Source: Fragilaria crotonensis
Lineage: Eukaryota > Bacillariophyta > Fragilariophyceae > Fragilariales > Fragilariaceae
Assembly: GCA_022925895.1 (NCBI GenBank)
Contig: JAKSYS010000193.1
Location: forward strand, 26,794 to 90,793
Length of the DNA: 64,000 nucleotides
Direction of reading: 5' to 3'
The notes under the pieces were generated by a model that worked only from the letters and a program-made list of their open reading frames with translations, made no database searches and was not told the origin of the DNA. How positions within the stretch are numbered: position 1 is the stretch's first letter; every line of letters starts with the position of its first letter. Below, piece by piece: positions 26,811 through 58,357 of this stretch. A program made the translations under genes and the position numbers.

Positions 26811-29179
26811 ATCTCGTACGGGCTTGAAGGTCGATCGCCGTGGGGGACGAAGTTGTACAAGCGAATGTAGTGGTAGAACGCATACGGCCAGAAGTTTGGT
26901 TGCAGATTTGCTCCAGAAAGCATGGTGCGAAGGGCGTCACCAATGGTTTGGTGCGGTCTTTCTCCTGGTCCATTTTGGTGCGACGAGTCCGGACCCGTGA
27001 GTTCCACAACATATCCGAAGTTTGCGAAGGTGCGGTGAATGTCTCGACACTTCCCGAGTTCGCCACCTCCATCCATTCGGACATACTTGTCCGGGCATTG
27101 TGGAGCGTTGCTGGCAAGCCAGCTGTTGATCCAATCGACGGGTGGAGCCTTGGTGGCAAAAGCGCGACCAAAGATTCGACCGCTGTAGTGATCGGTCAAT
27201 AGGACATAGCAGGTCTCACCGTTGAGTCCGACGAGAGTGTTATGTCGAATTGAGTCGCGGCTTTTCTGCACCATGAAACCAAAGTCAATTGACAGGCCTT
27301 GGTTGCATGTCGTTGCCCGCATCGTCGTCCCTGTTCCCGAAGGGGCTTTTCGGAGCTTTGATGCAAGGCAAATCGGGCATCCTTCAATCTCGGTCGGGAC
27401 TGTGAACTGAGGCATGCCTTTTACGAAGCGATGCATCTCTGACAACCGACGAAAGTTGATATGTCCGAGACGTTGATGCCACAACATTCTTAACGCCGAT
27501 CGGCTCAACGAACGAATGGTATACGCTTCGTTGGAGGCCGAGGAGAACTCTGGAAAGGGATCCATGGCGTCGAGGAGCTCGGGGCGTTGAACGATGAGGT
27601 TTGGTGAGTCGTCAGTTGTGATGACGCTGGTGGGCGTTGGTGTATCAAACTGATTGACAGCTGCCATTCCATTTCCATAAATGTAGCGTCTTGCTGAAGT
27701 GTCGGCAGGCGGAGAGTGACATGCTTCACAGGTCATGCCGTCGACGGGGTCGAGGATTGTAGCGGCGGTGACGGGAGCATGCTCAGTACAGAGCTTGCGG
27801 ATGACTTGATTGGACGGAAGAGGCGCCAGATGGGCCTCAGGAGTCGGAGCGATCAGGGCCTCGGTGAACGTCAGCCCTCCACGGTTCGCCGTTGGTTGCA
27901 GGATGATGTAGATGTCTTGCGATCGACGAATCTTGTTCGGAAAATGGATGTGCCCAACGCCTTCAGTGAAACTGGACATGTGGTAGCCATCGGTGCCAAG
28001 TTGCTTGGATATCGCCGCATGCGAAATGATGATGCCCGGGATTGTGGGAGTGTAGTATGTCCGAATGAAAACGGACGTCGGTCCGCCGGCATTTCCACGG
28101 TTGTCTACAGGCACACACAAGAAACCGACGCCAACTGGATGGTGTGCATGATGACCAGCATCGAAGAGACGCACATTGGTTCGATGAAGCGGGCGGTAGG
28201 CAAATAACAGATGGCGATCGTTGGCAGTGCAAGCCATGGACCCGTTGTCAGCGTGGGCGAACGAGAGGTGGCGGGCGCTGTCATACGTTTCTGCTAACCG
28301 ACGCAGCAGGATGGGATCCGAAGCATCGTCGAGTAGGACCGTTTCTGATGGCGGGAGAGCAGGCGTGGTGTCAGCGACTGTCACGACGATGGAATTAATC
28401 GTGGGGATGTCGAAACAAGCCTCGAAGTCCAGTTCGTCGTCTGCAGAAGTGGCACGAAGGGAGTTCTGTTGGTAACCAAGGATCTCCGAGCCTTCATTCT
28501 CTTCATCGTCGTCCTCGTTGCCATTGTTGTGGATCGCAGGTGCGTCACCGATGGGCTCGTCCTCTAGGATGCGTCTCATGGTGCGGTTGGTGCTAGGAGC
28601 ACCGTTGGACGGGCGATCACGAACACTGGCGGAGGTCAAGCGGCTTCGGAACTGTTTGTGCGAGTTCGCGATTTGGGCCTTGAGTTGGGGGTTGCGTTGA
28701 GCTAACCCTTCTGCGACGATGAAATCGACAAAACGGTTGCAGTCCTCCAACTTGTGCCCGGGGTGGTGGCAACCCAAACAGACAGCCGAAGCATCTTGGT
28801 TCTGAGAGATGGCACGGACCATGAGATCGATGGCGTCATCATCAAGAGTGGTGTCGGACGCGAAAGAGAACTCGGGGGATGCGGTCTCGATGCGACGGAT
28901 GATGGACGTCGGCGTGCGACCTGACGATGCGGAGGGTGGGTCGCGACCGATCTCGGAGGCATACTCGACGAACGTCGTCGCGAGTTGTGCCAACGAGAGC
29001 TTGAAAGGAAGAGCTCCGTCGTGTCCGGTGCGCTTATCACGCTCGACCAAACGTCGGATTTCAGGTCGCCACTCAGAGGACAAGTTGCGAACTGAGAGAT
29101 CCAAAGCCTCTGATTCCGTGTACGTTCGGGTGGCCTGGCGCTCACGTACCATGAAATCCTGCAGTCGACGGATGTACAA
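26672..29179 (-). CDS. Copia gag C-terminus, protease and integrase segment
   Basis: An 835-codon frame. It begins in gag (YIRRLQDFMVRERQ), has a CCHC zinc knuckle (CLGCHHPGHKLEDC), an acidic linker, then a retropepsin-like region with the DNG motif (HADNGSMA) replacing the usual DSG/DTG. The GAG-pre-integrase zinc site follows (HQRLGHINFRR...CPIC), then the integrase core with three catalytic positions: D in SIDFGF, D in RMDGGGELG and E in QNGPGERPHQT. It processes the polyprotein and inserts cDNA. Upstream gag is in another frame, and the frame ends at 26672 in the integrase tail. Confidence 0.85.
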   Translation of the reverse strand: MYIRRLQDFMVRERQATRTYTESEALDLSVRNLSSEWRPEIRRLVERDKRTGHDGALPFKLSLAQLATTFVEYASEIGRDPPSASSGRTPTSIIRRIETASPEFSFASDTTLDDDAIDLMVRAISQNQDASAVCLGCHHPGHKLEDCNRFVDFIVAEGLAQRNPQLKAQIANSHKQFRSRLTSASVRDRPSNGAPSTNRTMRRILEDEPIGDAPAIHNNGNEDDDEENEGSEILGYQQNSLRATSADDELDFEACFDIPTINSIVVTVADTTPALPPSETVLLDDASDPILLRRLAETYDSARHLSFAHADNGSMACTANDRHLLFAYRPLHRTNVRLFDAGHHAHHPVGVGFLCVPVDNRGNAGGPTSVFIRTYYTPTIPGIIISHAAISKQLGTDGYHMSSFTEGVGHIHFPNKIRRSQDIYIILQPTANRGGLTFTEALIAPTPEAHLAPLPSNQVIRKLCTEHAPVTAATILDPVDGMTCEACHSPPADTSARRYIYGNGMAAVNQFDTPTPTSVITTDDSPNLIVQRPELLDAMDPFPEFSSASNEAYTIRSLSRSALRMLWHQRLGHINFRRLSEMHRFVKGMPQFTVPTEIEGCPICLASKLRKAPSGTGTTMRATTCNQGLSIDFGFMVQKSRDSIRHNTLVGLNGETCYVLLTDHYSGRIFGRAFATKAPPVDWINSWLASNAPQCPDKYVRMDGGGELGKCRDIHRTFANFGYVVELTGPDSSHQNGPGERPHQTIGDALRTMLSGANLQPNFWPYAFYHYIRLYNFVPHGDRPSSPYEMCGAPLPNLAKLRTFGCRIHVRPTTARYGRVVPNSRLGIFLGTRAP

Positions 29180-34069: not shown

Positions 34070-35850
34070 AGCCCAAATTGGCAGTGGCTTGTCCCCAGTT
34101 TGAAGCCCAGAGAATCACAGTCATTGTAAATTGTCCTGTTATGGAATCATTGCCGTATATCTAACTGAAAACTAAGAAATTCCTTTGTCGGCATGACAAA
34201 ACCCCATTGAGCAGCTGCCACTCCCATGTTTGGCAATATATCCAAATGCATCTGAATAAGGGGCCAATCCAAAGTGATCCACTTTGAAGCCCAAGGAATC
34301 ACAATCATTGCAAAATATCCTGTCAGCAAAGAATAAGTGGCATGCATCTGACAAGACACCAAAAGAAATTCTATGTCTGCATGAAAGAAACCCATTGAGT
34401 ACCTATCATTCTTGGCTGTCCTTGTCAAAAATTGTGATTGCAGCCCAACAAGGATAGAGTACGCAGTTGCTTGTCCCCAGTTTGAAGCCCAGGGAATCAC
34501 ATTCAATGCCAATTGTTCTGTGAAAGAATCATTGTGATTGTTACGACAAGACACCCAGGCATTTGTTTGACTGCACTACAAAAAGCCATTGAGCAGTTGT
34601 CACTCTTGTCCTTGTCAGAAATTATCATTGTCATGCATCTGACAAGGCACTCAGACATATGTTTGACTTGCATTACAAAACCCCACTGAGCAGTTGTCAC
34701 TCCTGCCCCTGTCAGAAATTGTGATTGTATCCCAAGATTGGGGAAATGGAAAGTTGTCCCCAGTTTGAAGCCCAGGGAATCACATTCAATGCCAAATGTT
34801 CTGTAATAGAATCATTGTCATTGTTGCCACAAGACACCCAGGCATTTGTTTGACTGCACTACAAAAAGCCATTGAGCAGTTGTCACTCTTGTCCTTGTCA
34901 GAAATTGTGATTGCAACCAAAGGTGAGACAAATTGGCAGTTGCATGTCCCCAGTTTGAAGCCCAAGGAATCACATTCAATGCAATGAGTCTTGTCATAGC
35001 ATCATTGTCATGCATCTGACAAGGCACTCAACATATGTTTGACTGCATGACAAAACCCCACTGAGCAGTTGTCACTCCTGCCCCTGTCAGAAATTGTGAT
35101 TGTATCCCATGATTGGGGAAATGGAAAGTTGTCCTTAGTTTGAAGCCCAGGGAATCACATTCAATGCCAAATGGTCTGTGATAGAATCATTGTCATGGTT
35201 GACACAAGACACTCAGGCATTGGCTTGACTGCACTACAAAAAGCCTTTGAGCAGTTGTCACTCTTGTCCTTGTCAGAAATTGTGATTGCAGCCCGAGGTG
35301 AGACAAATTGGCAGTTGCTTGTCCCCAGTTTGAAGCCCAAGGAATCACATTCATTGCAAGGAGTCTTGTCATAGCATCATTGTCATGCATCTGACAAGGC
35401 ACTCAGACATTTGTTTGACTGCATGACAAAACCCCACTGAGCAGTTGTCACTCCTGCCCCTGTCAGAAATTGTGATTGTATCCCAAGATTGGGCAAATGG
35501 AAAGTTGTCCCCAGTTTGCAGCCCAGGGAATAACATTCAATGCCAAATGGTCTGTGATAGAATCATTGTCATGGTTGCCACAAGACACTCAGGCATTGGC
35601 TTGACTGCACTACAAAATGCCATTGAGCAGTTGTCACTCTTGTCCTTGTCAGAAATTGTGATTGCAGCCCAAGGTGAGACAAATTGGCAGTTGCTTGTCC
35701 CCAGTTTGAAGCCCAAGGAATCACATTCATTGCAAAGAGTCTGCTTGTCATTGCATGATTGTCATGCATCTAACAAGGCACTCAGCAGACATTTGTTTGA
35801 CTGCATGACAAAACCCCACTGAGCAGTTGTCACTCCTGCCCCCATCTAAG
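34070..35850. repeat. Satellite array, about 188-bp monomers in alternating dimers
   Basis: The phrase CCCAGTTTGAAGCCCA recurs with small changes near 34095, 34478, 34757, 34948, 35137, 35324, 35512 and 35700, with a partial match near 34280. The last five intervals are 187-191 bp. Each monomer also holds GGAATCACATTCA, GAGCAGTTGTCACTC and TGTCAGAAATTGTGATTG. Two monomer types alternate (one with ACTACAAAAAGCC, one with CATGACAAAACCCC), giving a higher-order period of about 377 bp. The left end is more diverged than the right. No spacer-like unique sequence separates the units. Confidence 0.85.
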
Positions 35851-36518
35851 GGCACAAGGATGAGGTTCAACATTATTAACTTAAGTTTTTTTTCATTTAA
35901 ATGAATTAAATTACATATGTATGTATTCTGTTCGTTATTCGGTTATGTGTTTGCGTAAATCTGAGTAAATTAAAAAGTTGTTATTCATTGTTTTCTTACA
36001 TACGCAATACATACATCTAAGGGCCAAAAATCGAAATAATGCAGTACTTACGAATGCTCAAGTTCGTACAAACTTAAAAAGGTAGATATTTAGCCGATTT
36101 TAGTACATAACCACAATTTTGTTTCCATATTTTTCCACAAGCTCATACATCCGTACTCGTTAATATACGTGTTTGTCTATTTATTCAAATTAGTCGTTCT
36201 ACGTGTTTCTCAACCTATGTACTAATCAGTACCAAATCACGTCTAAGGATTCGGATTGACATTTGAGTTGGTATTTCTGAAGTCAATACGGATAAATGAG
36301 ATTTGTGTTTCTTCCTTATGTGTGCGCTCAAACACGTCATCCCTGTTTGTCAGTATGCATGACCAGTTTTCATTGGTTGTCCATGAATTAATGTTGATAT
36401 TGTTAGCCAGTGTTGTGAAAGCAGCCGTTTGATGACACACCCACTTGCAAACACGCAGTGACGCAAACACCACGTTTATTATCTCTCACAACATAAACAA
36501 TTCAATCACTCTCAAAAC
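35851..36518. other. AT-rich leader between satellite and transposase A
   Basis: No gene seen. Very AT-rich. The word CATCTAAGGGC occurs twice (about 35842 and 36011). This stretch should contain the left end and promoter of the transposase-A element, but no inverted repeat was found by eye. Confidence 0.4.
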
Positions 36519-39360
36519 ATGTCAGGATTTGTATGCTACAACCCGCATTGTATGAGCCGTCACAAACTGTTCACAACAGAAAAGGCATTCACAATCCATT
36601 TTCAGCGGTCACCGACATGTTTAGCTTTTCTCCGTCGCGGCCATTCAACAACCACAACACCAGTTGCGCAATATCGCGTTGACGCAACCTTTGATGAAAG
36701 CGTTTTACAAGTACCAAACGTCCCAAGCATTTGCGTTGCGAAGTGGTAAATGACTTGTACAATCGTGCAGCTCCATCGTCGTTGAACGCACTGCCAGCAT
36801 TGTTGCCACCCGTCATTCATATGACGGAATCACCGTTGATGATATAAATGACATTCAAAATCTTGTGGATGAACCCAATGATATACCTGAATGTCCAACA
36901 CGTCATGATAGAGTTGCCGCATCACAATTTATGTTTTCTACGGATCAAAAATGGACCATTTCATTGTTAAAGATATTGGATGACATAAATGCGCCTGATT
37001 ATGCGTTTGAATCGGTCTTAAATGGGCCAGACATGCCCACGCAGATGGGTACTCATTTAATCCCGTCGGTGGGCAATCGCGATTGAAAAATGTGGATGTT
37101 CTGTTTCAATCTGTGACAAACGCACAGAGGCTGTTACCTGCGGTTGTCACTGTGGAGGTGCCGCACGGACCACCGTGCGATGTCATCGCTTATGAATTCG
37201 CACCGCAATTACTTAACTTGTTGCAAAACCCGTCCATCATGACTGCTGAAAATCTATTGATTGATTTGAACAATCCCTTGGTACCATATCAGAGCCCTGA
37301 TGGCAGACTTGGGGATGCGCTTTCTGGGAGTGTGTATCGCGATGCATACCAACGAATGATAACGAATCCGGCACGACAATTATTTGTTCCCATTATCCAA
37401 TGGATCGACCGCACACATGTGACAGGTAATGCCCGATTTTCACTGAAACCATACATGTTCGCGCCAGCTATTTTTAAAGAGGAGTTTCGTCGTAAGCTAC
37501 AGGCCTGGGGATATCATGGCTTCCTCCCAAAAGCAAAATTATCATCCGCACAAAATCAAACTAACATGAAACAAGGTGACAATGTGCGGAACTATCATGC
37601 CCAGTTGGATGCAGTGTTAAGTTCATTTACTTCGGCCGGTCCCTATTTAATGAATGTATCATTGCCAATTGGTCCACAGGGAATCATGCAAGTGGATGTC
37701 GTCACTTGTATTCTGTATGTCATTCAAGACATGCAAGAAGGTGACATGTTGTGTGGTCGATTTGGGTCACATGGAGCAGGCATTCAGCGACATAGTCGTG
37801 CGTGTGATGTCGATCATGAAAATTTGGATAATCCTGAGGTCCAATGTTCTATGCTTTCAGCCCACGATATTGCAGCCATTGCGCGTGATCCCAACGTGGC
37901 AACTCGAAAACGATGGTCACAACATCGTTTGAATAATGTCTTTGATAGCATTCCGATGGCCGACCCAATTCGTGGAATATATGGTGCAACACCGGTTGAA
38001 ACCATGCATGCGTTTCGTAAAGGCATGATCGAAATGGTCACGTTCTTGATTCTTGAAAATGTCCCTCCCAGCCAGTTGGCGGCGTTGGACGCCCTTGCAA
38101 TTCGGTTTCACAATACGCACCGACAAACAATTCGCCGAACGTTTCCTGCAACGGATTTTAGCCAAGGTATCACAAATTTGACAAAAATTTCAGCAGCGGA
38201 ACGTTTGGGTTTGGTATTTTTGTTTGTAATTCTGGCACAATATGATGAAGGATGGCTGATTTTAGAATCCACGTTTGAAATGCGGCGAGTAAGAGCCCAA
38301 AGTGCTGATAAAACGCTGCAGCCGAAGAAGCTGCCAACCTTCCTGCTGTGATTTCTGTCTTTGAGGCAATGTTATGTTTTGATCAATGGCTCAATAAAAC
38401 CTCATACTGGACCCCGCAGCATCATGCAGAATCCAAAATGGTTGTTCAGAATGCCATCAAAACATTAATGTCCATGTGTGTAACTGACATTCCACTGTCC
38501 AAAAACAAATCGTGGAAGTTTCCAAAGTTTCACGAATTGTTGCATTTACTCGACAATATGGAACGGTTTGGTGCTCCAATCAATTATTGTGCGCAACGTC
38601 CAGAATCACTGTTAATTCCAGTTGCCAAAAAGCCTGGCCGCCGAGCACAAAAACGTCACAATGGATCTGCTTACGAACTACAATCTGCGCAACGCTTGTC
38701 GTATTCACTGATGATTAATGCAGTCTATACCAGAATATGGGACACCACAAAAGGTGCCGCTAACGTTCCTGAGAACACCAATCCTCCGACCAGCACTGGC
38801 AAAGCCACTTTTGGAACATTGACATGTGACTTCACAACTGGATATCGGTTGTGTTGGCATACTCAAACCAATGTCTCATTGATGCACATTCCCGATACTG
38901 TATTGCAGTTCTTGAGTTACCAATTTGGTTCAAAGGTGCATGTGTGCACGGAGCTGAGGCACAACGCATCCACGTATCGATGCCATCCATCATTCCAATC
39001 TGGAGGTCCTGTTTATGATTGGATGAATGTGAACTTCAAAACCAAAACGTCCAACAGAGTCTCGGTGCATCCGTGCCGTTTAACTATGGTTGTTGTTACC
39101 AACAATCTGCAACCCATTCGACTGGTTGTCCAAAAGGCTTACACACAACTGGCATCAAATCAGTGCTTCTGACCGAATGGTTAATGTCCGACGATTATAC
39201 CGTTATTGAACCTTCTGATATAGATGGCCCCTGCTTTGCTATTTTGATTAAGGATGATGGCTCTAAAATTTTGCAAACGTTGCCTCGCCATTTGTGGGCA
39301 TCAGAATTTACTGAACCTGTGGACGAGTCAAGCAAATGCTATCTCAAAACAGGGTCATAA
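36519..39360 (+). pseudogene. DDE transposase copy A, Plavaka/CMC-like, frameshifted
   Basis: ATG at 36519. The N-terminus is a C2H2-like finger (CYNPHC...H...C), then KWTISLLKILDDINAPDY. The core frame (37083-38351) has HGPPCDVIAYEF, ENLLIDLNNPL, a first acidic site in IIQWIDRTHVTG, and GATPVETMHAFRKGMIE, which resembles the conserved Glu region of Tnp2/Plavaka transposases. The C-terminal frame 38348-39172 has KFHELLHLLDNMERFGAP and RPESLLIPVAKKPGRR. The final part is in the frame ending at 39360. At least four one-base frame changes separate the parts, one in the AAA of TCTTAAATGGG near 37020. The family assignment is from motif pattern, not alignment. It ends 36 bp from the convergent accessory gene. 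Confidence 0.7.
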
Positions 39361-39396
39361 TAAAATAAATGTTATACTTAATTCATGTAAAAGGTT

Positions 39397-40326
39397 TCAA
39401 TTTATTTCTGTCATCAATGTCATTTTTTCAATCCTCTGCTGTCGCTGTCCTTCATATCGAAAAATGTAACCCCGCCGGAATCCAACAAACTCACTCTTCA
39501 CCAATGGAGTAGAGGTACAATAATTCAAAGCCTCTTCGCAAAGAGGGAGGGCTTTAACCTCATTCGCATCATACACAAATCCTCCATGAATGCAAACGGC
39601 ATGACAACAGCTACCGTCCGATGCAGTCAGAACACCAAGCAAGAGGTTTCGCGCATCGAGGTCAACTCTCCAATCGAATTGTCGAGGCAAACGCCGAATC
39701 ACTATCCAAGTCGGAAGAATGCTTCTCGCATGTTTCACAACATTTTCCAAAGCATCGACAACTGCCCCTTTTAAAATTTCTTCACCGAAATTGTCAATGG
39801 TAGATGCCTCGTCGCAAAAACCTAGCGAAAACAAAGCTGAAGCAAGGGCCTTCGACACACACAAATCTTTTCCATCAGCTTGATTGAAGTGGACAGCAGG
39901 CGCCCCATAACATTGCAAGTTTGGATGGTGGTGCAAGTGAGATGGTTTGTAATCACCGACGGGCACATCCACGAACCCACGTAGATCCCCCATCTTCAAC
40001 TCCTTCACAAATGGTTCACCAAATGCCATACTGACAAACTCTTCCTCCAAAGTTGTCTCCTTATTATTTTCCATTCGACCTAACCATTTCTCTTTTGAAG
40101 TAACAGGCTTTCGAATGACTGACTTTTGCCATTTTGCCTCTTCCTTTTCAAGACGTATTTTCTCATGTTTCTTGATGTTCATTGGACTTCTTGCAACCTT
40201 AGAAGGTGTGGGTGGTGCCTTTGCTGTGACATTCGGCGTCTGGGAATTGTCTGTTCCAAAGCGAAAGTTTGTCGATTCGCTCCGCTGGAAGGTCAGCAAA
40301 TCCAAGCTTCTTTCGCCTCTTGGCAT
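39397..40326 (-). CDS. Papain-fold cysteine-protease-like accessory protein (C-terminal segment)
   Basis: A 309-codon frame from an ATG at 40326. The N-terminal 80 residues are basic and helical. A segment with FVDVPVGDY at 118-126 follows, then a cysteine-protease-like core: candidate Cys156 in DLCVSKALASAL at a helix start, His242 in CCHAVCIHGG, and Asp253/Asn255 in VYDANE. The order Cys, His, Asp/Asn is that of papain-fold proteases (C39-like), the reverse of Ulp1. The partial homologue at 59489-59849 lies at the same place beside transposase B. Coding sequence upstream in another frame overlaps by 128 bp and appears to be the same protein, broken by a frame change between 40199 and 40326. 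The protease assignment is inference from motif order. Confidence 0.65.
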   Translation of the reverse strand: MPRGERSLDLLTFQRSESTNFRFGTDNSQTPNVTAKAPPTPSKVARSPMNIKKHEKIRLEKEEAKWQKSVIRKPVTSKEKWLGRMENNKETTLEEEFVSMAFGEPFVKELKMGDLRGFVDVPVGDYKPSHLHHHPNLQCYGAPAVHFNQADGKDLCVSKALASALFSLGFCDEASTIDNFGEEILKGAVVDALENVVKHARSILPTWIVIRRLPRQFDWRVDLDARNLLLGVLTASDGSCCHAVCIHGGFVYDANEVKALPLCEEALNYCTSTPLVKSEFVGFRRGYIFRYEGQRQQRIEKMTLMTEIN

Positions 40327-41836
40327 TCGTTACATCCTTCTCATTTATGACCTTCTTTGTTGCTTCATAATCAATCACATGGCGAACTTGGGGAGGCACA
40401 TATCGCACACGAACAACTTTATGTTTGGCGATTCTTACTTCAACATCACGTGGAACGTCAGTCCACTTGTCTGTTTGATGCATGTTGATAATATGTTGAA
40501 TGTCCACATCTGCATATTCGCTTCGGACCCATTCTTCATCAACTTTTAGTTCTTCTTCAGAGACCACCATTGTTTTTGGATCTGTTTCGCTTGGTTCTTG
40601 ATAAACCAAGCGAGCATAAAAGCTGTTGTTTGCTTTTTCAAAGCGGAGCCCCTTAACCATCGTAAGGCGAGTAAACATGAACTCGTTCGTCAACTCCTTC
40701 GTAAACTGAGATCGTTCATTCTTGATACCTTTAATCAACTCACGGATGTATTCTTTCTTGGATTCGGAGCAATCTCGGGCTTTCATTTGCTTTGCCCAAA
40801 ACTCAATCGTTTTCTGGTGATCCTTTTCACTTGACCAGTTCCACTTTTCAAAACTCTCTGCAATAAATTTTGAGAGTTCCGCTTTGAAACCTTTGTCGAT
40901 AGTGACAATTGTATCATCTGCAGTCGCTGTAGCATGGTATTTGTGATAGAAGGCCCCAATCGTAGTTGTCGACTGTGTAGAAACCTTTTGCTGTTTGGCT
41001 TCCTCAGTGAGCACGATGTAATCATTGTCGACATCACCATCATCATCATCGCTTTTGAGTCTTCCTTTCTTTCGTTGGGGTACCACATTGTCATCTTCAA
41101 ACAGAACATCATCAAGATGCAATCGTTTCAACAATTCGCCATCTTTGCGCTTCTTTGTGGGGGTTCGAATGTGGAGTTTGATGGGTCCAAGTTTTGAAGG
41201 ATCCTCGATCTTCTTGATTGTGTACCCTGGTTCTTCATCTGCCGACTTGTCTTCTTTTGTTGGTGTGTCTTCAATTTCGATGTCTGCAACGTCGTCTTTT
41301 GTTGGTGTGTGGTCGATTCTGATTTCTGCAACAATAGTGTCAGGATCGATTATTGTCAAATCATCAGCAGAGGCTCTTGCGATTTCATTTGATTGTGAAG
41401 CAACCTGCGTTGCAGCAGCCATCGAAGGCTCTGTCTCTGGCGACATAAAATTGATTTCATTGTCATCAACAGTTTCCCTTAATGCAGCAGAGGCTTTCGC
41501 ATCTGGCGACATTAAATTGATTGTCACATTTTCATCCAGATTCATGGATACACCAGCCCCTCTCTTTGCTGGTGATGATAAATCAAAAGCCTTATCTGCC
41601 TTTTCTGCTGGTGAAGATAAATCAACAATGATATTTCTGTCGGGGCTCTGGGAAACATCAATTGCAGATGAATCACCTTGAGCTGCAGCTTGGTGTCTTT
41701 TCTTTTTCTCTTCATCAATTTGTTTGCGCAGTAGGCGAAGTTTTGGCTTGGACAATGTCTGGCGCTTTTTCATTGTGTCGAAATCGGGCCAAGCAAGTGT
41801 ACTCTGCTTTGTTTCCAAGTATAATGGATTGACCAA
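40199..41836 (-). CDS. Charged linker segment of the accessory protein
   Basis: A 545-codon frame without its own good start: the first ATG is at 41773, but the frame is open upstream to about 41866. Residues 1-250 are disordered, rich in Lys, Asp and Ser, with repeated short motifs of the type DLSSPA, NLMSP and DHTPTK/EDTPTK. A folded, Lys/Glu-rich helical region follows, then a segment ending DEEWVRSEY...WTDVPRDVEV that resembles the FVDVPVGDY segment downstream, so a small module may be repeated. It sits between the GNAT–Ulp1 frame and the papain-like frame on the same strand. The sequence reads as one protein across all three if one-base shifts are allowed. Confidence 0.6.
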   Translation of the reverse strand: MVNPLYLETKQSTLAWPDFDTMKKRQTLSKPKLRLLRKQIDEEKKKRHQAAAQGDSSAIDVSQSPDRNIIVDLSSPAEKADKAFDLSSPAKRGAGVSMNLDENVTINLMSPDAKASAALRETVDDNEINFMSPETEPSMAAATQVASQSNEIARASADDLTIIDPDTIVAEIRIDHTPTKDDVADIEIEDTPTKEDKSADEEPGYTIKKIEDPSKLGPIKLHIRTPTKKRKDGELLKRLHLDDVLFEDDNVVPQRKKGRLKSDDDDGDVDNDYIVLTEEAKQQKVSTQSTTTIGAFYHKYHATATADDTIVTIDKGFKAELSKFIAESFEKWNWSSEKDHQKTIEFWAKQMKARDCSESKKEYIRELIKGIKNERSQFTKELTNEFMFTRLTMVKGLRFEKANNSFYARLVYQEPSETDPKTMVVSEEELKVDEEWVRSEYADVDIQHIINMHQTDKWTDVPRDVEVRIAKHKVVRVRYVPPQVRHVIDYEATKKVINEKDVTNAKRRKKLGFADLPAERIDKLSLWNRQFPDAECHSKGTTHTF

Positions 41837-41942
41837 TTGTTCTTGTTCACTCGTTTTGGGAACACCTCATATTGCATAGCAGCCATCCGATCAAAGAGAA
41901 CAAACCATTCTTGGCGAAGCATAGTAAGATAATCTGCCAATA

Positions 41943-44393
41943 TCAAGTCGTTGTTTTCCGTCGGGAGTGGTTCAAAAACCGTCTGTCAAAGTAGGCAAAC
42001 CACTCCTTTGTGATGTTATCCTGATGTAGCTCCCAATTCTTCTGAGGACCAAATTGCTCATCGAAATTCATTCGTTCCACTTTTTGGGTGCAAACATTTC
42101 GCAATATAATCCCGACAGCAGCAACAACTCCCACTCCACAGTTCCATCCATCGTCTTGTCGTGGGAGCAAATTTGCTTCTGGGAGACGTAAGGCCGGAAA
42201 GCTTTTGGTTCCAAGCATATTGCCTTGGGACGTTTTTCCAAATGGGGAACACCATCTCATAGCCGCACCTTGCGCAGGCATGCTTTCTTGGTAAACTTTG
42301 GTGCTGTATGACAAGTTCAGGAACCAAATGATGCCTGTATCAATGGAGACATCCCGCGTCCCAAACGGATATTTGCTGCAGTATCGGAAGAAAAATGGTT
42401 TTGGAGAATTGTCTGCATTCTCAATGTCACCAACGTTGTCACGAATGTACCCTGGATTGAAGACAAAAGTAACACTCCAGTGCTCACCATCCTCATTTTG
42501 AGGGAACACTAATACCTGTTTTGAAAGCAATCCGGGATTTCTCTCGATGATTTCATGCACCACAAAGTCTTGCTGAACTTGTTGTGTACGTTTAATCTGT
42601 TTCGAACCTGTTCCCAAAATCTTTTGGACCAAGGCTTCGAGTTCCTTTTCATCCATTGATGCATTGTCTTTTTCCAATTGAAGGAGGGCTTTGTAAGATG
42701 CGTGCGCCGCAAAACCTTTCTTCAAGACGCTTCCAAAATAAACAGACAAAATGAAAGTTGCATCTTCATATCTTCCATCACATGTCAAAATCGAAAGCAT
42801 CAAGTTTATCTCACCACTCGAAAACCATTGTGTTCCTTCCGATTCACTATGTTGCTTGCGACGGACCAGCGTCATTTCGCCTTTCAAGAACAACGAATTG
42901 GCAGGCAACAAAGGCTCAAGTGGACCAGGCAAGAGTTTGCGCAAAAGCGGTAGTGACATAAATAGATTGTCCGCATCTTTTCGATCGTAGACGAATCTTC
43001 CACCACCTATCAAAAGTGGAGGTGGATACTGGCACCAGAATGGTTGGGTCCTCGGTTCAACATTGACTGTGTCTTCATCATCTTCCTTGTCCTTGGCGGC
43101 ATTTGCAGAATTGCGGTAATTCAATTCACCATGGCGCAAATGCATAAGCATTGGGTGCTTTGAATCATTTGTTGAGCGCAAAAAGGATGATGGGGTTTGG
43201 GATTTCAATGCTGTTTGCAAATGCAAAGGAAGCATTTTAAACCCGTCATCTGCTTCACTTTTGTTCAACTGACGAAAACCAATCATCGTGTAGAAGTGAA
43301 ATGCTGATGGTTCTGAACATTGAAGGAACACCTCAATCGTCTTGACATCCTTAATGGATGCACACCGTTTAATAACTTGAACCATCATGAACAAACCCAC
43401 TCCATTGCGGCGCCACGATGTTATCGAAGGCGGATGTGCTGTCAAATGGTGCGTCACTCCCAAGAAAGACACAAATACCGACATTGCTCCATGATCGTTT
43501 GGATCGCGATGCAATTGAAAAGTAACCGCTGACACTGTGATCAGGGATGAGGCATATGGCGTCAGGGATTTCGGTAGAACACCCTTTTTGGCAACCCGAA
43601 GAGCAAGCATCATGATTGTGATATCTTGTTTCATGGCCCGATCGATTTGTTCTTCCATTGACGGAGAGGGATGGAAAATCTCGGTGTAAAATTGTCGAGC
43701 GCAAGTTAAGAAATTCTTTGGAGCTGTTCCAAAAGAAATGTTTTCGACGCATTGCGGCCCCAAGAGAACATGGCGAAAATGCCACATTTTATTGCCAATG
43801 TCTCCAGGCTTGAATATAGCCTCCGCAAACCGAAAGTGTTTGAACCAATTACGGAATGGAGGTAAATTCTGTTCCACAAAGCCGACATCCAACCCACGGA
43901 TATACGCAGCAATTATGCCGCGCTTCTGTCCATGATTAAGTTGTCCAGCCAACTCATTAATTCCGTCAAACTTATACACCGAAGCTAATGTTGAAACTTT
44001 CGTGGGTGTACTTGGAACAGGAACCACAACATCGACGTCACCTTCAATAAGTTTGTGGATAACCTCAGGAGTGGAAGCGTTGTGCGGTACTGCCTCACCA
44101 GCAGCCTTGGCCATAACCTCAAGTCCTTGCATGGGATCGGCACTTGCAAGATTCGACAATGCCAATGCAGAAGCTGCCAAATCTGCATCACCATCCAATT
44201 CAACAGGAGGCATTTGGCTTGTCTCAGCTCTGGCATTTGCCTCTGAGGACGACGAAACCAAACTATCACTGTTTTCCATCCTACCAATCATGAGTGTTGT
44301 CTCAGCATTGGTGACTGTTTCTGATGCGGCCGTGGACTCAGCTTCACTATCAACTTCACGAAGCATTTCACTCGTCAAATCTTTCCCACTCAT
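41943..44393 (-). CDS. GNAT acetyltransferase–Ulp1-like protease fusion
   Basis: An intact 816-codon frame from an ATG at 44393. Residues 1-140 are low-complexity and acidic. A GNAT-like domain lies at about 280-375, with the acetyl-CoA loop pattern R328-x-x-G331-x-G333 and FYTMIGF at 367-373. An Ulp1/C48-like domain spans about 520-800: WFSSGEIN at 523, His638-Trp639, Gln746 and Cys752 in RQDDGWNCG. The usual catalytic Asp position reads Asn693 (WFLNLS). Ulp1-type enzymes cleave SUMO-like conjugates, and KDZ/CMC transposons often carry such domains. After the stop at 41943, coding-like sequence continues in another frame (LTMLRQEWFVLFDRM), and an AAAAA run at about 41973 is a likely shift point. 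Confidence 0.7.
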   Translation of the reverse strand: MSGKDLTSEMLREVDSEAESTAASETVTNAETTLMIGRMENSDSLVSSSSEANARAETSQMPPVELDGDADLAASALALSNLASADPMQGLEVMAKAAGEAVPHNASTPEVIHKLIEGDVDVVVPVPSTPTKVSTLASVYKFDGINELAGQLNHGQKRGIIAAYIRGLDVGFVEQNLPPFRNWFKHFRFAEAIFKPGDIGNKMWHFRHVLLGPQCVENISFGTAPKNFLTCARQFYTEIFHPSPSMEEQIDRAMKQDITIMMLALRVAKKGVLPKSLTPYASSLITVSAVTFQLHRDPNDHGAMSVFVSFLGVTHHLTAHPPSITSWRRNGVGLFMMVQVIKRCASIKDVKTIEVFLQCSEPSAFHFYTMIGFRQLNKSEADDGFKMLPLHLQTALKSQTPSSFLRSTNDSKHPMLMHLRHGELNYRNSANAAKDKEDDEDTVNVEPRTQPFWCQYPPPLLIGGGRFVYDRKDADNLFMSLPLLRKLLPGPLEPLLPANSLFLKGEMTLVRRKQHSESEGTQWFSSGEINLMLSILTCDGRYEDATFILSVYFGSVLKKGFAAHASYKALLQLEKDNASMDEKELEALVQKILGTGSKQIKRTQQVQQDFVVHEIIERNPGLLSKQVLVFPQNEDGEHWSVTFVFNPGYIRDNVGDIENADNSPKPFFFRYCSKYPFGTRDVSIDTGIIWFLNLSYSTKVYQESMPAQGAAMRWCSPFGKTSQGNMLGTKSFPALRLPEANLLPRQDDGWNCGVGVVAAVGIILRNVCTQKVERMNFDEQFGPQKNWELHQDNITKEWFAYFDRRFLNHSRRKTTT

Positions 44394-46336
44394 GATGGAG
44401 AATCAACAATCGTATGATTTCAATCAGACCTCACAAACTTCAATGACGCCCAATGGCTTGAACGGTCCTTTGCTAAACAAAAAGGACTACTGCACCAACC
44501 GAGTAATGTGGGCTTTACCAGTAAGGCACGACGTGTAGGCACACTACTCTTTCGAGCAAGATCCTCGCAGGTGACTGATGTCCACACACAAAACTCGAGA
44601 TGGTGCAGCAACTGAACAATCTTATCAATCAATAACGACGACAATGCTTGCCAGCTGAAGTTGTTGGTTGTAAAACTGACAAAACAGATCAAAATTGGAG
44701 TGAGTTATTTCGATTGTGATGCAGCAAAGCAGTTTCCTCTTGGTTGCACAACGGTAAGATCTTGATCAGTACCAGGTACAGTGATAAAGAGTACCTACTG
44801 TCAAAGGAACAAGCGTAGTAAAATACAACACAGTGCTCCTACCACCATGCAGTAGAGGCCACGTGTTTTGGCGCGTACTACCAGTAAGTACTCACTGTAC
44901 AAAAACAACAGTGCTGGTACGACGATGCCGTAGAAAACGCGTGGAAGTAGAGTTTTTGTACATCCGGGTTACCCTGCGGCAACACACCAAAATTCCCCTG
45001 ATCTCATCCATTCAAAAAGAACAACAACCTTGTCATCTTCAAAGCCAAAACTCTCACAGATTCATCTCATGACATAAGAGGATGGGATGTTACTTACAGA
45101 AACGAATTTGGTGAAGAATTGAGAAAAGAGTGAATAGAAGTGTGTCAGTTCACTTGAGGATCTGACACTGGATGGAGTTGTGTACCAAAAATGTGTTCGA
45201 CGCATAACGGTCGTTTAACGTCATGTTAACATCGATTTAACGGATAATGTACCGAGAAGGTTTATACTACTTCTTCACACAAACGCAGGTTTTGAGGTGC
45301 ATTAACTAGCAGGGACCGCAGTGGTTCGATGCCCGCAGCCCCAAGATCGTCAGTTCCATTTGCGTTCTCGAGGAGCCTTGGCGGTTTGTTTAACAGCAAA
45401 AGCAAATTGAATTGCGACATATATATAACGGCACGCCTACAAGACGAGTATCACTATCAACACCGAAACCACACCAAGTAACGATGCATCGAAACACAAT
45501 TGCAACACAACGGTTGATTCCGTGATATAACCGCAGTAGAAAAAAACAATGGCAAATACAAAATGAAGAATTTCAAAGCCATTTGCTACGCGAAAAAAAG
45601 CGATGGAACAATAAGCAATCACACGACAGCTAACCACCATATACGACAACCGCCAACATATGGAACGACCGGTACAGCAGCAATGTGTTTATCCTATTGT
45701 GATGCCGCATCTGCAGAGGCCCACATAGGTTACACAAAAATTGTCTAACAATGAACACGTCTGTATTACGCATTAGCGAGACGGCGAGCAATCAAAGTAA
45801 AAAGTAAGAACAATACAGTCGTATTGCAGACCAGTAGAAGTACCGGCCGAAGTAAAGTACTTACTAAGAACTCAACGATAGTAAAAAAGGGCAATGAAAA
45901 CATTTGATGCAAACTACTAGATTACTTTCACGGAAGTAGCGTTGAATCGTGTGAATCCAGTATCTTGTTCTACGTTGAATACAGCGGCAGCACGTTAATT
46001 TAATTTACCGTTTTTTGTTCTTAGCACGGAACCAGTTCACAGTGCCATCAATTTATTACTGAGATTTTAATGCGGGAAACAATGTTCAAATTTAAATAAT
46101 GCGCGGCACGCAATTAAGGTTTGACTTTCAAATAAATCGTAAGTCGTAACTTTGTTTGAACCACAACACGTGTTTTGGTTCACATTTATACATGCAACAA
46201 ACCACATGTTGTCATACAACATATATCTACGTTGGATGAAATGATCAATGTTTGAATGAGTTTGCATTAATCGTGGAATTATAAAGACTTACTACAGCAC
46301 GTTTACATGAGTTCATAAAACGCAAGTTTGCTTCAG
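44394..46336. other. Intergenic between transposase-A element and four-exon gene
   Basis: AT-rich sequence with no gene I can support. It should contain the right end of the transposase-A element and the promoter of the following gene. A GGTTCGATGCCC word at 45328 looks like a tRNA T-arm but no tRNA folds around it. Confidence 0.45.
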
Positions 46337-47781
46337 ATGAACGGAATGCATCATCGCGGTCAACTGGACCCATCATCCGTTTTGGATGATGAACTGCCTT
46401 CGATACTTACCAAAAACATGTTGTATATGTCGAGACGAAATGATTGCGCAGTTGCTGAGGCCGTGCAAAGTGATCAAAAAGTACTATATCATCAACAACA
46501 ACACCAAGTAACGCCGATCATGACTGGTTATTCTCCCATGCCATCAATGCGAGACGGCGGAGAAACAGAGCGTGCGTTAATGCCTGGAAATGTTGCAATG
46601 GTTCCTCCTCATCCTCTTCCGCTTAACATGCAGCTTCAAAACACAATTGCGTCGCAACGCATGATGGTGAAAGAGTGTGTCAAAACAAAGTTGTTCAGTC
46701 GTCTCAAATTTTTTAAAAAAGACTTGCATGGTTTATATGATTTAAGACGTGGCACCGTTTGTTCGATGATTGTTGCTAATTGCAATGTAGCGACAGAAGA
46801 CGTTGATGAATACTGGTGGGCAGACATGCGTAAACTTGTTGTTTGTACTCACACAGATCGTCGCAACAACGTCATCAAAAACATGCGCTTAAGATTCAGA
46901 GGTACGTACAATTTTATGAATGGCTCGAGTGCAATCATATGACTAACGTTTGGTTTTGTTGTGTCAACGCAGACGGCATGTGTGGTAAGATACCGCACTT
47001 TAAAGTCAACAATGGTCAAAATGCCGATATGGACTACATGTTAGCTATGCGAGACAATTTGGTTCATTATGTTCATTTAATTGATATCTATGCGCCTTGC
47101 ATTGTGGGACACAGTAATTGGAATGACAAGGCTAACATGATGAGTTATTGTCGTTCCGATGCTTGTGTTTTCAATGAATATGTGTTCTCGTTAACGAAGC
47201 CTTTATGCTTCTTGTGTTACTAAATTACACAGAGACATGGATGTCTGAATTGGCATTGGAACAATCAAAGGTATGACGATAAAGTGCAATGTTTTGATTT
47301 TGTTCGATTGCCGTGCTAACACATTGCTATAAATATGGCCGATACTTCGTTACAGATTCAAGCACATGTTAACGCTGTTGCGGGTCAGGTCCCCGCGATT
47401 GTGGTAAGTTCTTGATTGCTGCGTGACAATATCGCAAGCATGCTACAAAGCTAACACTTGGTGCAATGGTAGGCACCAAAGTATACATTGTCACGAAAAC
47501 AACGCAACGATACTAATGGTGTAGCTGGGATTGGATGGACTGAAGATGGCATGAATAAGTTTAATGAGCTCTACGATTCCGTGAAAGAAGACAGGATTTC
47601 GCGTGGAGTGATGTTTAATAATCAATTGCTGAATGTTTTTTTGGAGCGCCAACGTGTTGTGAAACCAAATCCACGACGTGCAAACAACCGTAAGCGCAAA
47701 GCGATGCCACGAGATGATATGGGATGTATTGACACCGTGCTGTGCACAAATGAAAATCCAGACTGCATTGTGCCTTTATAA
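46337..47781 (+). CDS. Four-exon gene of unknown function, transposon-associated family
   Basis: Proposed exons: 46337-46901, 46973-47270, 47356-47403, 47473-47781. All three introns are GT-AG (71, 85 and 69 bp), and each has CTAAC 17-35 bases before the acceptor. Exon 1 ends in KNMRLRFR. Exon 2 begins in phase (DGMCGKIPHFKV). Near 47190 the frame must gain one base, after which VNEAFMLLVLLNYTETW runs cleanly to the donor at 47271. Exon 3 is IQAHVNAVAGQVPAIV. Exon 4 holds WTEDGMNKFNELYDSVKEDR and a basic tail. The product would be about 406 residues. I recall similar multicopy proteins from diatoms, with no known function. It lies upstream of transposase B, same strand, and may belong to that element. 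If the exon-2 frame change is real, the protein ends at 47223 instead. Confidence 0.6.
46902..46972 (+). other. Spliceosomal intron 1, 71 bp
   Basis: Donor GTACGT, acceptor CAACGCAG, branch-like GACTAAC at 46940-46946. Removal joins two frames into one, which supports a real intron in a nuclear gene. Confidence 0.7.
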
Positions 47782-48538
47782 TGTGATTATTTTAATATTG
47801 ATTAAGATGCAGATATTTACCACACACCACTTCATAAATAGACAGTACGATACAACATAATCAGGCGGTGCTAAGTAAAGGAATATGAAATGCAAAATAA
47901 AGGATTAACTAGCGACGAAAGATCAGGAGTACGCCTGATTAGATTACGTTGTTTCGTGAGAAGAAACTTAGGATTCCGTATTCTAAATTATACCGGAATC
48001 CATCAATTAGAACTCGGGTGTATCAAAGAGTATTTTGTTGGATTCCGAATTCTGGACTTCGGAACATGTGCATACAAAAGTACGGAATACGAAAAAAAAA
48101 CTAGTACGTGAACAATAATGTGGCATTATTTTGTACGGATCTATGCATAATTTAATTCGTATAAATCCAAACAAAAAATAGGGATATGTGACACGAATTC
48201 AGGTCTTGCTTTTTAGATGTATGCCGGGGTATGAAGTTAATCATTCTCATACGTACGTAATGATACCAAGTTTTACGCGTTTAGTTCATTTTCTGCAACA
48301 ATTTCATTTTTCCGTGATTTTTGTTAACGAAATTTGTGCTTTAATTCTCGGTTACTGCAAGTGCGAGTTCAGGAATCTGAATCTCTGTTTAGGTTTATAA
48401 TGGCACTCTATCACACTGATTGCCTTTGCCTGATAGAGCAGCCACCACAACCAGTATTTCGCCTTGTTACTAATTGCCACTTTGCATCCGTTTCTGGTTG
48501 CACGATTGCTGCTGCGTTATTGTTTTGTTTCTTTTGTC
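47782..48538. other. AT-rich leader of transposase B
   Basis: No gene seen. Probably includes the left part and promoter of the transposase-B element. No terminal inverted repeat was found by eye. Confidence 0.4.
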
Positions 48539-50298
48539 ATGTCATCTTTTGTTTGTCTCAATCCTCACTGCAGCGGACGCCGTCGGCGGTTTGTAAGCGA
48601 GAAATCGTTTGGAATGCATTTACAAAAATCCACTTCGTGTTGGCATTTCTTTCGTGCCCGTATGTCTGCAGGTAAAGGTTCCGCGTTAGACACTAGTTGC
48701 GTTATGGTGCCCTGCCCAACAAACCGCGCGGCGGAAGACGCTGACGCCGTCTACGCAAGCTCTCAACGCGCTGTGCCGCTGTTGTAATTTTGTAAACGAC
48801 AATTTCTCTTCATCAGGATCAATTGCTTTTCCAATTGAAGACGGCAATTTTCACCATGTTCCATGTCCACCAAATGTGCCACACCAGTCTTGTGCAGTGC
48901 CGCCTCCGCCTGTCTCTTTTCCATTCTCAACAAACCAAAAGTGGACTGTGGCACTACTTAAACTTCTGAATGATATGAATGCACTGACTATGCTTTCAAG
49001 CAATTCTAACATGGGCACGCAGGCCATTGCCGACGGCTTTTCCTTTCAACCAGAAGGAGGCAAAACACATCGCAGGAATGTTGATCGACTTTATGCTATG
49101 ATGAATAATGCCACGCAGCTGTTGCCATCTGTACGCAGGGTTGACGTGCCACACGGTCCTCCGTGTGATGTCATAACATTTGATTTTGTTCCTCAACTGT
49201 TACAATTGTTACAAAATCGAACCATTATGACCCAGGAAAATCTCCTTATTGATGTGCAGGACCCATTGCGACCGACACCAGTCCCAATGGTGTTCGAGGC
49301 GAAGCTTTGTCCGGTCAGGTGTATCAAGATGCGTATCAACGCCTTGTTACCAATCCTCAACGTCAACTCTTTGTCCCAATCATACAATGGATTGATCGTA
49401 CATCGGTCACTGGGAATGACCGATTTTCACTCAAACCGTATATGTTTACTCCTGCCATATTTGCTGAGCCATTTCGACGCACCATCCCCGCATGGGGATT
49501 TCATGGATTCTTGCCAAAACCAAAACTTCTTCTGCGCAAAATCAGACATTCAAACTTGGTGACAACATTCGCAACTATCATGCGCAGTTACAGGTTGTGC
49601 TATCCTCATTTCGACGCCGTCTTCGCGCCACGCAATGTCCATTTACCATTAGGACCAACCGGATCTATTCATGTTGATATTGTTACGTGTATTCTTTTGT
49701 GATACAAGACATGCAAGAAGGGGATGCTCTATGTGGTCGTTATGGCCCCCACACGCCGCAGGTGCAACGCCACTGTCGATCATGCAATGTCAGTTATGAA
49801 GATTTAGATTCTCCTTATTTTACGTGTCGGTACTTGTATGCCGCACCAATGGCAATGATTGCCTCCAGTGACGACAAGGCAATTCGTGTACGGTGGTCGC
49901 AACATGCAGTGCACAATGCCTTTCAAGACGAAGTGCTTGCTGATCATTTACGAGGTATCTTTGGTGCAACTCCTGTGGAAACCATGCATGCATTTCGCAA
50001 AGGTTTAATTGAGCACGTCACCTTTTTGGTGTTAGAAAATGTTCCGGTGTCTCGCAAAGCAGCTTTGGACGATCTTGCAATTCAATTTCATCACCGCCAC
50101 CGGCAAACGTATCGCAGAAAATATCCGGCTACCGATTTTAGCCGTGGGGTAACCAATCTAACAAAGGTAACAGCGCGCGAACGCCTCGGATTGGTTTTTC
50201 TTTTTGTTATTTTGTCTCAATATGATGAAGGCTGGGATATTTTGGACCACACGTTTGAGCGCCGAAGCATTGCCACTGTGAAAAACATTGTTGAAGTG

Positions 50299-50313
50299 TT
50301 CGAAGCACTTCTC
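50299..50313 (+). repeat. Target-site duplication, left
   Basis: TTCGAAGCACTTCTC, an exact 15-bp match to 58358-58372. In transposase B it encodes FEALL, present once in copy A. Confidence 0.9.
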
Positions 50314-50398
50314 AGAATTTTCACCCTAGTGAATTTTGGAAGACATTCAAAAATCCTACGTGAATCTCTGGTACGTTTCGTACGACGAAACATTGACA

Positions 50399-52051
50399 AT
50401 GACGACGCAGTCTTTTCCAATCTCCAGCGTTGGTTGTGATCCAACCCGCAATCCCGATGTGGAAGACGACTTGTCTACAGCTACTCCACCTGTTGGTTAT
50501 CGTAATCCAGATAACGATTATGAATTCGTTTCGAAAACCATCAGGTTCAACTTTGCACCAACTGACCGCACGCGTATTGATAGTGTTGATCCCGCTACTG
50601 TCCATATCCAATGGTTACGTATCATTGCGTCCACCTTCGGAAATGACGTTAAGGTCATCAACAACTACAATAAACCTGTCAACAGCATCCACACCAACAC
50701 CCAAACTACAACCAAAACAAGTTTTAAGCACGATCAGCAGTTCAACATTCATCAGAAGTCAGTAGGTGTCGATTCTTCTGGGATGTCGAGGGTAGCGTTC
50801 ACTATTGTTCATCGGATTCTTGTCCGCATCCCCTTTGGTCAGATTAAGCGACATCCCCAGGCTTTCCAACTCTTGAAAGATCAGAATTGTTTCTTGAGGG
50901 AGCACTTGTGGGATGAACAAGAATGGGACGTCCAACAAATCGGCTTTGTCACTGGTTTCAATCCGAAGTATTATACTTCCGAAAAAGTCACTATGGATCT
51001 CCGCACTCGCCTCACCGATGGAATGCCACGAGCAAAAGTTCCAAAGTTCCAAACCGTTTTGAAAACTCACAAAATCAGTCACAAAGAACGAATCTCCTCA
51101 ACTCAGGCGTTTTCGGTCGAGGTTCCAACTCATTCTGCTGCCCAACTCATCTCGCTCATGAAAGAGTCTACCAAAGACACTAAAGATTATGTGCCATTTC
51201 AAATGCGCCGTAGAAACCCGGATGCTTTTCAAGGTGCAATCAGGTATCAAAATCATGTTTTGGCAACCCAGCACGTGGTTATGATTAATCACATCGGAAC
51301 TGACGCTATGTACTACTTATCGGACCGGATTCAGGCTATCTCAGGAGTTCTCGACGTTATTCCAACAAAGAAAGTGTCCCACAATGGCAAGTTTTATGTT
51401 CTTGTTCAAAAAAATGAGGAAGGTAAAGTACGAAAGGCCTTGCAACAACAATTCAACGAATGGTATCGTGATGTCGTTCCAGAAGATGCAAAACCGCACG
51501 ATGGGAAATTTGAAGGTCCGCCTGAAGTGCCTAATCCCAGGACTGATGGCTATTCAAGTGGCGAACAATCTTGGCTAACAACGTCCACGAAGAGCTTTAT
51601 GGAATACAGCGTTTCGAGCATGACAACAACAAGCACTACGAACGGAGATTTTGAGTTACGTCTTGATAAAGCATGGGATAATCGTCCAAGCGCCGAAGGT
51701 CCATCGTCGAAGAACCAGACCCAATTCAGCAAGTCATCCTCCGAACGAATGTATGAGTCGTATGCGGCCGCAACAGTTTCTGATCAGATGTCAGGTATGA
51801 CGGAGTCTGATACTCCACGGGATATACTCCACGAGGAGTTGAGAAACAAAATCGCTACACTCGAAGCCATGATAGAACGTTTATGCCATCAAGTTCAAGT
51901 TTTAACCAATGCAACGGCACACCAGCAATCGGCGGACCAAGACGGATCAGTCGACCATCGAGAAAAACGCCTCGACAGGAAGGATTCTCCACGCAAACAC
52001 AAACAATCGCAAAATATTCAGCTTCTCAGGTATCGCAGAAGATACCAGTGA
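50399..52051 (+). CDS. LINE ORF1 protein
   Basis: 550 residues from the ATG at 50399; the frame is open slightly upstream with a TTG. No zinc knuckle is seen. The middle is a folded alpha/beta-looking region (RVAFTIVHRILVRIPFGQ, MYYLSDRIQAISGVL). The C-terminal third is Ser/Thr-rich, followed by a predicted coiled coil (ELRNKIATLEAMIERLCHQV) and a basic tail. Position and length suit a nucleic-acid-binding ORF1 protein that packages LINE RNA. Its end overlaps the start of the endonuclease frame by 169 bp. Confidence 0.65.
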   Translation: MTTQSFPISSVGCDPTRNPDVEDDLSTATPPVGYRNPDNDYEFVSKTIRFNFAPTDRTRIDSVDPATVHIQWLRIIASTFGNDVKVINNYNKPVNSIHTNTQTTTKTSFKHDQQFNIHQKSVGVDSSGMSRVAFTIVHRILVRIPFGQIKRHPQAFQLLKDQNCFLREHLWDEQEWDVQQIGFVTGFNPKYYTSEKVTMDLRTRLTDGMPRAKVPKFQTVLKTHKISHKERISSTQAFSVEVPTHSAAQLISLMKESTKDTKDYVPFQMRRRNPDAFQGAIRYQNHVLATQHVVMINHIGTDAMYYLSDRIQAISGVLDVIPTKKVSHNGKFYVLVQKNEEGKVRKALQQQFNEWYRDVVPEDAKPHDGKFEGPPEVPNPRTDGYSSGEQSWLTTSTKSFMEYSVSSMTTTSTTNGDFELRLDKAWDNRPSAEGPSSKNQTQFSKSSSERMYESYAAATVSDQMSGMTESDTPRDILHEELRNKIATLEAMIERLCHQVQVLTNATAHQQSADQDGSVDHREKRLDRKDSPRKHKQSQNIQLLRYRRRYQ

Positions 52052-54393: not shown

Positions 54394-54485
54394 ATCCGTC
54401 AATACCACCAGAAGATGAACGCACAAGAACATCTGAAGTTACTGGCTCTTAAAGACGAATATGACAACATGCAACAAACATTGGC

Positions 54486-57258: not shown

Positions 57259-57261
57259 CCA

Positions 57262-58226: not shown

Positions 58227-58357
58227 AGGTGGCTTCTCAAGTCGAACAAGCGACGATAGCTACTGTATACTCCAGTACAGTGCCTATCCGTGCGGGTCGA
58301 ACGTCTTCTCGTATTGGGCGTAGCGATAGCACGTTAATTTGAATTCTAGTTTTTTTT

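Follow-up and report, generated by a model that had tools for sequence, protein, structure and literature searches.

Plavaka transposons are grouped with EnSpm/CACTA (Kojima, 2025, PMC12730594), and fungal Plavaka and other fungal elements can carry a TET/JBP epigenetic-modifier gene (PMC12730594). The transposon described here, which we named element 1, resembles PlavakaA and PlavakaB in its Plavaka transposase, a 2-bp duplication, CATC...GATG ends and a possible epigenetic-modifier cargo, but differs from the fungal elements in being algal and in having an accessory protein with GNAT, Ulp1-like and papain-like domains instead of TET/JBP; the main text of that paper contains no words beginning with ulp, protease or acetyltransferase (PMC12730594). 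Ulp1 is also known from CACTA elements, namely Cactavine-2, -3, -4, -5, and -13 of grapevine (Benjak, 2008, PMC2528002), which are similar to element 1 as EnSpm/CACTA-related elements with an Ulp1-type domain, but are plant CACTA elements for which a GNAT or papain-like domain is not mentioned in the available text of that account (PMC2528002). The third comparable system are the Vandal MULEs, whose VANC/KIU genes contain Ulp1 and whose VANC proteins direct hypomethylation of related elements; according to the available part of that description, they share with element 1 an accessory protein with an Ulp1 domain, but they are MULEs and not CACTA-related, and their accessory architecture is a different one (PMC13317346). 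The same algal genome also harbors transposon-borne Ulp1 peptidases at the loci L056 and L059, but these have clear matches to the Pfam C48 family (7.6e-10 and 4.9e-7, respectively) together with a MULE transposase match. At five loci of this genome, L054, L056, L057, L059, and L060, Ulp1 (C48) adjoins or is fused to MULE transposases, as is the case in the KIU elements of plants; this assignment comes from a Pfam check for L056 and L059 and from inspection by eye for L054, L057, and L060. Thus, both the transposase class and the presence of Ulp1 in CACTA are already known, whereas the triple-domain accessory combination appears to be new, as searches of openly licensed PMC papers yielded no account of a transposon protein in which GNAT, Ulp1-like and papain-like domains are fused.

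The window, i.e., the whole stretch of 64,000 nucleotides that was analysed, corresponds to C106:26794-90793 of a 62.1-Mb assembly with 881 contigs. The chlorophyll-binding family has 61 matches in this genome, and its member L065 matches among PDB chains at first the LHCI chains of entry 9vfj, followed by VCPI-1 and fucoxanthin chlorophyll a/c proteins; the host is accordingly an alga. A scan against Rfam gave no match at the gathering score. Within the window, the following features define element 1 and the element that surrounds it:

36014-48219, plus strand: whole DNA transposon (element 1), 12,206 bp
36014-36020, plus strand: left terminal inverted repeat CATCTAA, from copy comparison
48213-48219, minus strand: right terminal inverted repeat TTAGATG, from copy comparison
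36012-36013, no strand: target site duplication TA, left copy
48220-48221, no strand: target site duplication TA, right copy
35843-36013, plus strand: left end of element 2 (CATCTAAGGGC...), the host of element 1
48222-59806, plus strand: remainder of element 2, with transposase and papain-like pieces and a retrotransposon interruption

The ends of element 1 are common to its other copies. A 501-bp probe of the accessory gene is found at 10 places in the genome, seven of which (window included) have 98-100% identity, and all nine places outside the window were fetched and aligned to it. Besides the window, eight copies show the left end CATCTAAGGG and seven the right end TTAGATG; C200 is truncated by the contig end on its left side, and C674 and C202 on their right side. 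The flanks of the copies differ, except for C620 and C202, which have the same left flank. Equal 2-bp flanks are present in five of the seven two-ended copies (TA, TA, AT, TG, TA), and unequal ones in C620 and C527. Hence the shared terminal inverted repeats, which the initial annotation had proposed to look for, are present as CATCTAA...TTAGATG and enclose the transposase as well as the accessory gene. As C620 and C202 have a common left flank and several locus pairs have equal scores, some of the loci may be alleles or duplicated contigs, and all counts given here refer to assembly loci rather than to independent insertions.

The left-end motif CATCTAAGGGC is present again at position 35843, and the sequence of a related transposase continues to the right of 48222. 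When both flanks of element 1 are joined at one TA, the resulting 374-bp query aligns end to end with six loci at 95-96% and matches three further loci at 77%, and the uninterrupted sites L067 and L068 read across the junction with a single TA each. These empty sites indicate that element 1 is nested in the related element 2 and that its target site duplication is TA. Element 2 is a second Plavaka element with DNA ~66% identical to element 1 over 49140-50258; its transposase pieces lie at ~48.5-50.4 kb and 58.3-59.2 kb and its papain-like piece at 59489-59806 on the minus strand. It is split by a retrotransposon with an endonuclease-like frame at 51811-54393, which matches PF03372 with 6.6e-5, just below the cut-off. 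Directly left of the element 2 end there is a tandem array with periods of 186 and 375 bp (34624-35842), and further left a Copia-type retrotransposon was recognized by eye on the minus strand (24333-29179), comprising a frame at 24333-26810 with a reverse transcriptase match (PF07727, 4.1e-16) and a gag/integrase-like frame, also assigned by eye, at 26672-29179.

The transposase gene of element 1 is located in its left part:

36519-39360, plus strand: transposase of the Plavaka type; five frames in the window, one intact frame in the copy C147

The five frames extend over 36462-36749, 36754-37086, 37011-38351, 38312-39172, and 39019-39360, a break-up that the initial annotation had not noticed, and in C147 the transposase is a single stop-to-stop frame of 967 amino acids. 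The region 37011-38348 matches the Pfam family Plavaka (PF18759) with an E-value of 2e-12 and 47.4 bits against a cut-off of 26.3. Judged from this match, element 1 belongs to the Plavaka lineage of cut-and-paste DNA transposons, which is EnSpm/CACTA-related. The initial annotation had named it a candidate undescribed transposon, a designation that does not apply to the transposase, as Plavaka is a known lineage. The 2-bp target site duplication (TA) agrees with Plavaka as well. For PlavakaB, duplications of 2 or 3 bp and the ends CATCA..TGATG are described (PMC12730594); element 1 has CATCTAA..TTAGATG, so that bases 1-4 agree and base 5 differs, and since its ends are close to, but not the same as, those of PlavakaB, we filed it as Plavaka and not as PlavakaB. 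A further character of Plavaka, the motifs C(2)C and H(3-4)H between the second D and the last E, was inspected by eye, and the place of C(2)C is occupied by CRSC in element 2 and by SRAC in element 1. Among the subterminal sequences no 7- to 9-mer is clearly above shuffles. Membership in KDZ was rejected because the transposase matches Pfam Plavaka, a lineage placed with EnSpm/CACTA (PMC12730594), and an assignment to Maverick/Polinton was rejected as none of the nine frames scanned has an integrase or polymerase match.

Opposite to the transposase, element 1 harbors the accessory gene:

39397-44393, minus strand: accessory gene, very probably encoding one protein of ~1,660 residues
43218-43418, minus strand: core of the GNAT acetyltransferase domain, residues 326-392 of segment 1
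42024-43037, minus strand: Ulp1-like domain with H638, N693, Q746, and C752 of segment 1 (alignments A2 and A4, Q placed by eye; hhalign)
40202-41866, minus strand: long charged linker, containing a single short tandem repeat (41249-41332)
39415-40047, minus strand: papain-like domain with Q150, C157, H243, D254, and N256 of segment 3

The last transposase frame ends at 39360 and the accessory frame at 39397, so that both genes converge with 36 bp between them. In the window the minus block consists of three stop-to-stop frames, 41943-44402 (819 amino acids), 40199-41866 (555 amino acids), and 39397-40329 (310 amino acids). The convergence, and also the places where the frames meet, were found about as the initial annotation had given them, and its proposal of one long protein likewise stands, since for either junction there is another copy whose natural frame reads across it: segments 1 and 2 are joined in a 1,132-amino-acid frame of C874 and a 380-amino-acid frame of C147, and segments 2 and 3 in a 627-amino-acid frame of C131. 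The same applies to a diverged family, in which L045 has a frame of 1,414 amino acids that starts ahead of GNAT and continues through the linker, and L052 one of 567 amino acids that leads from the linker through the papain-like domain. That the three frames are three separate genes is therefore highly improbable, even though none of the copies examined has a frame open through all three segments. The differences between the closest copies speak against it too. Compared with the window, C620 has 15 substitutions and 26 short indels, C147 eight and 40, C474 13 and 28, and C200 14 and 48, and of these indels 19, 26, 16, and 31, respectively, lie in homopolymers of at least four bases (57-73%), which hold 6.9% of the bases. 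Few substitutions together with many homopolymer indels mean that the frame breaks are most plausibly explained as errors of the assembly. At about 41855, one base that is present in seven other copies is missing from the window and from C200, and as some junction gaps are common to several near-identical copies, these could also be true mutations of the youngest copies. Near 41973, the window has a run of five T, which varies from T4 to T7 in other near-identical copies, and for this reason programmed frameshifting was rejected as the main cause. From the frames and their bridging, the minus-strand block is thus very probably one protein of ~1,660 residues.

Within this protein the GNAT domain is well supported by sequence comparison. 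GNAT acetyltransferases have the motif R/Q-x-x-G-x-G/A, and RRxGxG is invariant in the five sequences of alignment A5. The window protein matches PF13673 with an E-value of 6.1e-5 and 23.4 bits, just below the cut-off of 23.6, and this family matches seven of nine members (E-values up to 1). In a profile search NAA50 chains were found with an E-value of 0.0029, and PHROGs and NCBIfam gave weak acetyltransferase matches only (0.0014 and 0.17). For the Ulp1-like domain the assignment is a weaker one, and it is described here as Ulp1-like for the order of its residues. Peptidases of the Ulp1/SENP type (C48) have the catalytic order His, Asp, Gln, Cys. In the accessory protein His, Gln, and Cys are invariant in the seven sequences of A4, and an Asn is invariant in nine of nine Ulp1-like sequences at the presumed place of the C48 Asp, an equivalence that is our own reading. 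An alignment by hhalign with five C48 domains of the same genome has a score of 24.3 over 25 columns at the Cys box, which was reached by one of 300 column shuffles (best 26.1). Pfam C48 has no match above the cut-off in the window protein and matches one of nine members with 0.026; among the 63 C48 matches in the genome none lies at an Ulp1-like accessory locus, and the A4 profile has no match among PDB chains at E-values up to 10. A single-sequence structure model of this domain has a mean pLDDT of 34.3 and was useless. For the third domain, papain-like peptidases (clan CA) have the order Gln, Cys, His, Asp/Asn, and the corresponding residues Q150, C157, H243, D254, and N256 are invariant in 18 of 18 aligned sequences. 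This domain has no sequence match in Pfam or PDB, and its fold comes from a low-confidence model; it is therefore designated papain-like. Of the three domains that the initial annotation had read in this block, GNAT is well supported, whereas Ulp1 holds for the order H, N, Q, C and a weak profile match and not for Pfam, and papain for the C...H...D order in relatives, with a fold that is predicted at low confidence. Outside of this genome, relatives were found neither in viral_contigs (alignments A1 and A2) nor in phage records (GNAT-Ulp1 segment) nor in genome_contigs (alignment A1).

Element 1 extends beyond the accessory block to 48219 and contains a third gene, neither of which was seen in the initial annotation:

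46337-47223, plus strand: third gene, probably of two exons (~46337-46901 and 46973-47223), from genome matches and with splice sites proposed from the sequence
47473-47781, plus strand: further open reading frame of 102 amino acids

Between the accessory and the third gene, at 44445-44615, other copies are ~270 bp longer and have a 170-bp stretch doubled (overlapping alignments). The region 46337-47781 has no match in Pfam, and the third gene has 97 matches in the genome.

The arrangement of these genes was then compared over the genome, with close hits merged. The 80 transposase, 70 papain-like, 40 Ulp1-like, and 82 third-gene clusters obtained from these searches are lower bounds. The tally of association took in 70 of 111 papain-like matches; most of those left out are second fragments of a locus, and C55:35865 and C264:13925 were left out although lying somewhat apart. 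A transposase is present within 12 kb of 59 of the 70 papain-like clusters, always in convergent orientation (59 of 59), and 11 have none. Similarly, 35 of 40 Ulp1-like clusters are convergent with a transposase and five are without. Counted by transposase clusters instead, a papain-like cluster is convergent in 58 of 80 cases, differently placed in two, and missing in 20. A further tally of 71 papain-like loci, to which C55:35865 was added and for which a second Ulp1-like query was used, shows an Ulp1-like match no more than 10 kb upstream on the same strand at 60 loci, none at 11, and no other arrangement. In diverged relatives, too, the domains follow each other as GNAT, Ulp1-like, linker, papain-like, and the pairing of accessory block and transposase that the window had suggested is thus a fixed one wherever a transposase is near a papain-like cluster. 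The third gene occurs mainly in two layouts, with a transposase within 12 kb of 53 of 82 clusters (35 downstream on the same strand, 16 head-to-head, two otherwise) and 29 clusters without. Among ten distant transposase loci (32-36% identity), nine have no detectable accessory within 10 kb, and the accessory found at the tenth, C518, adjoins another Plavaka transposase, whereas weak matches of the third gene are present on the contigs of seven of the ten (C17, C121, C156, C170, C471, C599, and C650). The accessory gene is therefore either a clade-specific addition or too diverged to be seen there, and the loci without it, 20 of 80 clusters and nine of ten distant ones, indicate that not every Plavaka element needs an accessory protein.

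Gene capture is known for CACTA and MULE elements, as the available parts of two accounts describe (PMC2528002; PMC13317346), and the accessory gene might accordingly consist of host gene fragments that were captured by chance and are not used by the element. This is very unlikely, because the papain-like and Ulp1-like parts recur in order beside transposases at loci down to ~30-50% protein identity, and because the intact copies that were compared have dN/dS values far lower than 1. For the papain-like part the ratio is 0.068 (C872), 0.118 (C339), and 0.179 (C131), for the GNAT-Ulp1 part 0.15 (C872) and 0.333 (C131), and for the transposase 0.134 against C131. Higher values were obtained for C874 (0.29-0.45) and for C527 (0.60-0.76), which is full of frame breaks, and against the more distant loci C449, L027, L029, and element 2 dS is saturated, so that no ratio can be given. 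The ratios indicate that the genes are under purifying selection in most comparisons.

By analogy with the Ulp1-bearing VANC/KIU proteins and with TET/JBP in other transposons, the accessory protein would most likely be a counter-silencing factor. We tentatively picture element 1 as a Plavaka element with three products, a transposase, a counter-silencing accessory protein of ~1,660 residues and a third protein that may be a DNA-binding partner. The transposase would cut at the CATC ends and insert with a 2-bp duplication, as the ends and the empty site suggest. The accessory protein, held at the element by partners or by its charged linker, could free silencing proteins of their SUMO- or ubiquitin-like tags and place acetyl groups on chromatin or on regulatory proteins, with the outcome that the element stays expressed and is kept up against the host. 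A stronger form, about which we are rather doubtful, is that a single three-enzyme protein erases ubiquitin-family tags with two unrelated peptidase folds, writes acetyl marks, is inherited with the transposase and has been retained at dozens of loci in a single algal genome. The presence in one chain of two cysteine-peptidase-like domains, one on either side of the long charged linker, could also mean that these process the accessory protein itself or the transposase in a polyprotein-like maturation, with GNAT modifying the transposase; Polintons carry a core cysteine protease, according to the part of the source available (PMC5718144). We regard such a maturation as unlikely, since transposase and accessory protein are encoded by separate convergent genes and a quarter of the transposase clusters (the 20 of 80 mentioned above) have no detectable accessory gene. 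Alternatively, the accessory protein might be a structural or DNA-binding partner like TnpA, with its enzyme-like domains being inactive scaffolds, to which the Asn in place of Asp and the position of the Ulp1-like domain below the Pfam C48 model would fit. This role is equally improbable, as the invariant His, Gln, and Cys of the Ulp1-like domain, the papain-like Cys, His, and Asp in all aligned sequences, and the purifying selection argue against inactive domains, and the third gene is another candidate for the DNA-binding role.

To our knowledge, few transposons of organisms other than plants and fungi are known to carry genes for proteins that might counteract silencing by the host. The conserved GNAT, Ulp1-like and papain-like protein opposite to a Plavaka transposase is a concrete and testable candidate for a counter-silencing factor in an alga, and the recent near-identical copies of element 1 make experiments possible. 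Furthermore, the occurrence of Ulp1-type domains in Plavaka-type elements and in MULEs, two unrelated groups of transposons within the same genome, would point to a common need.
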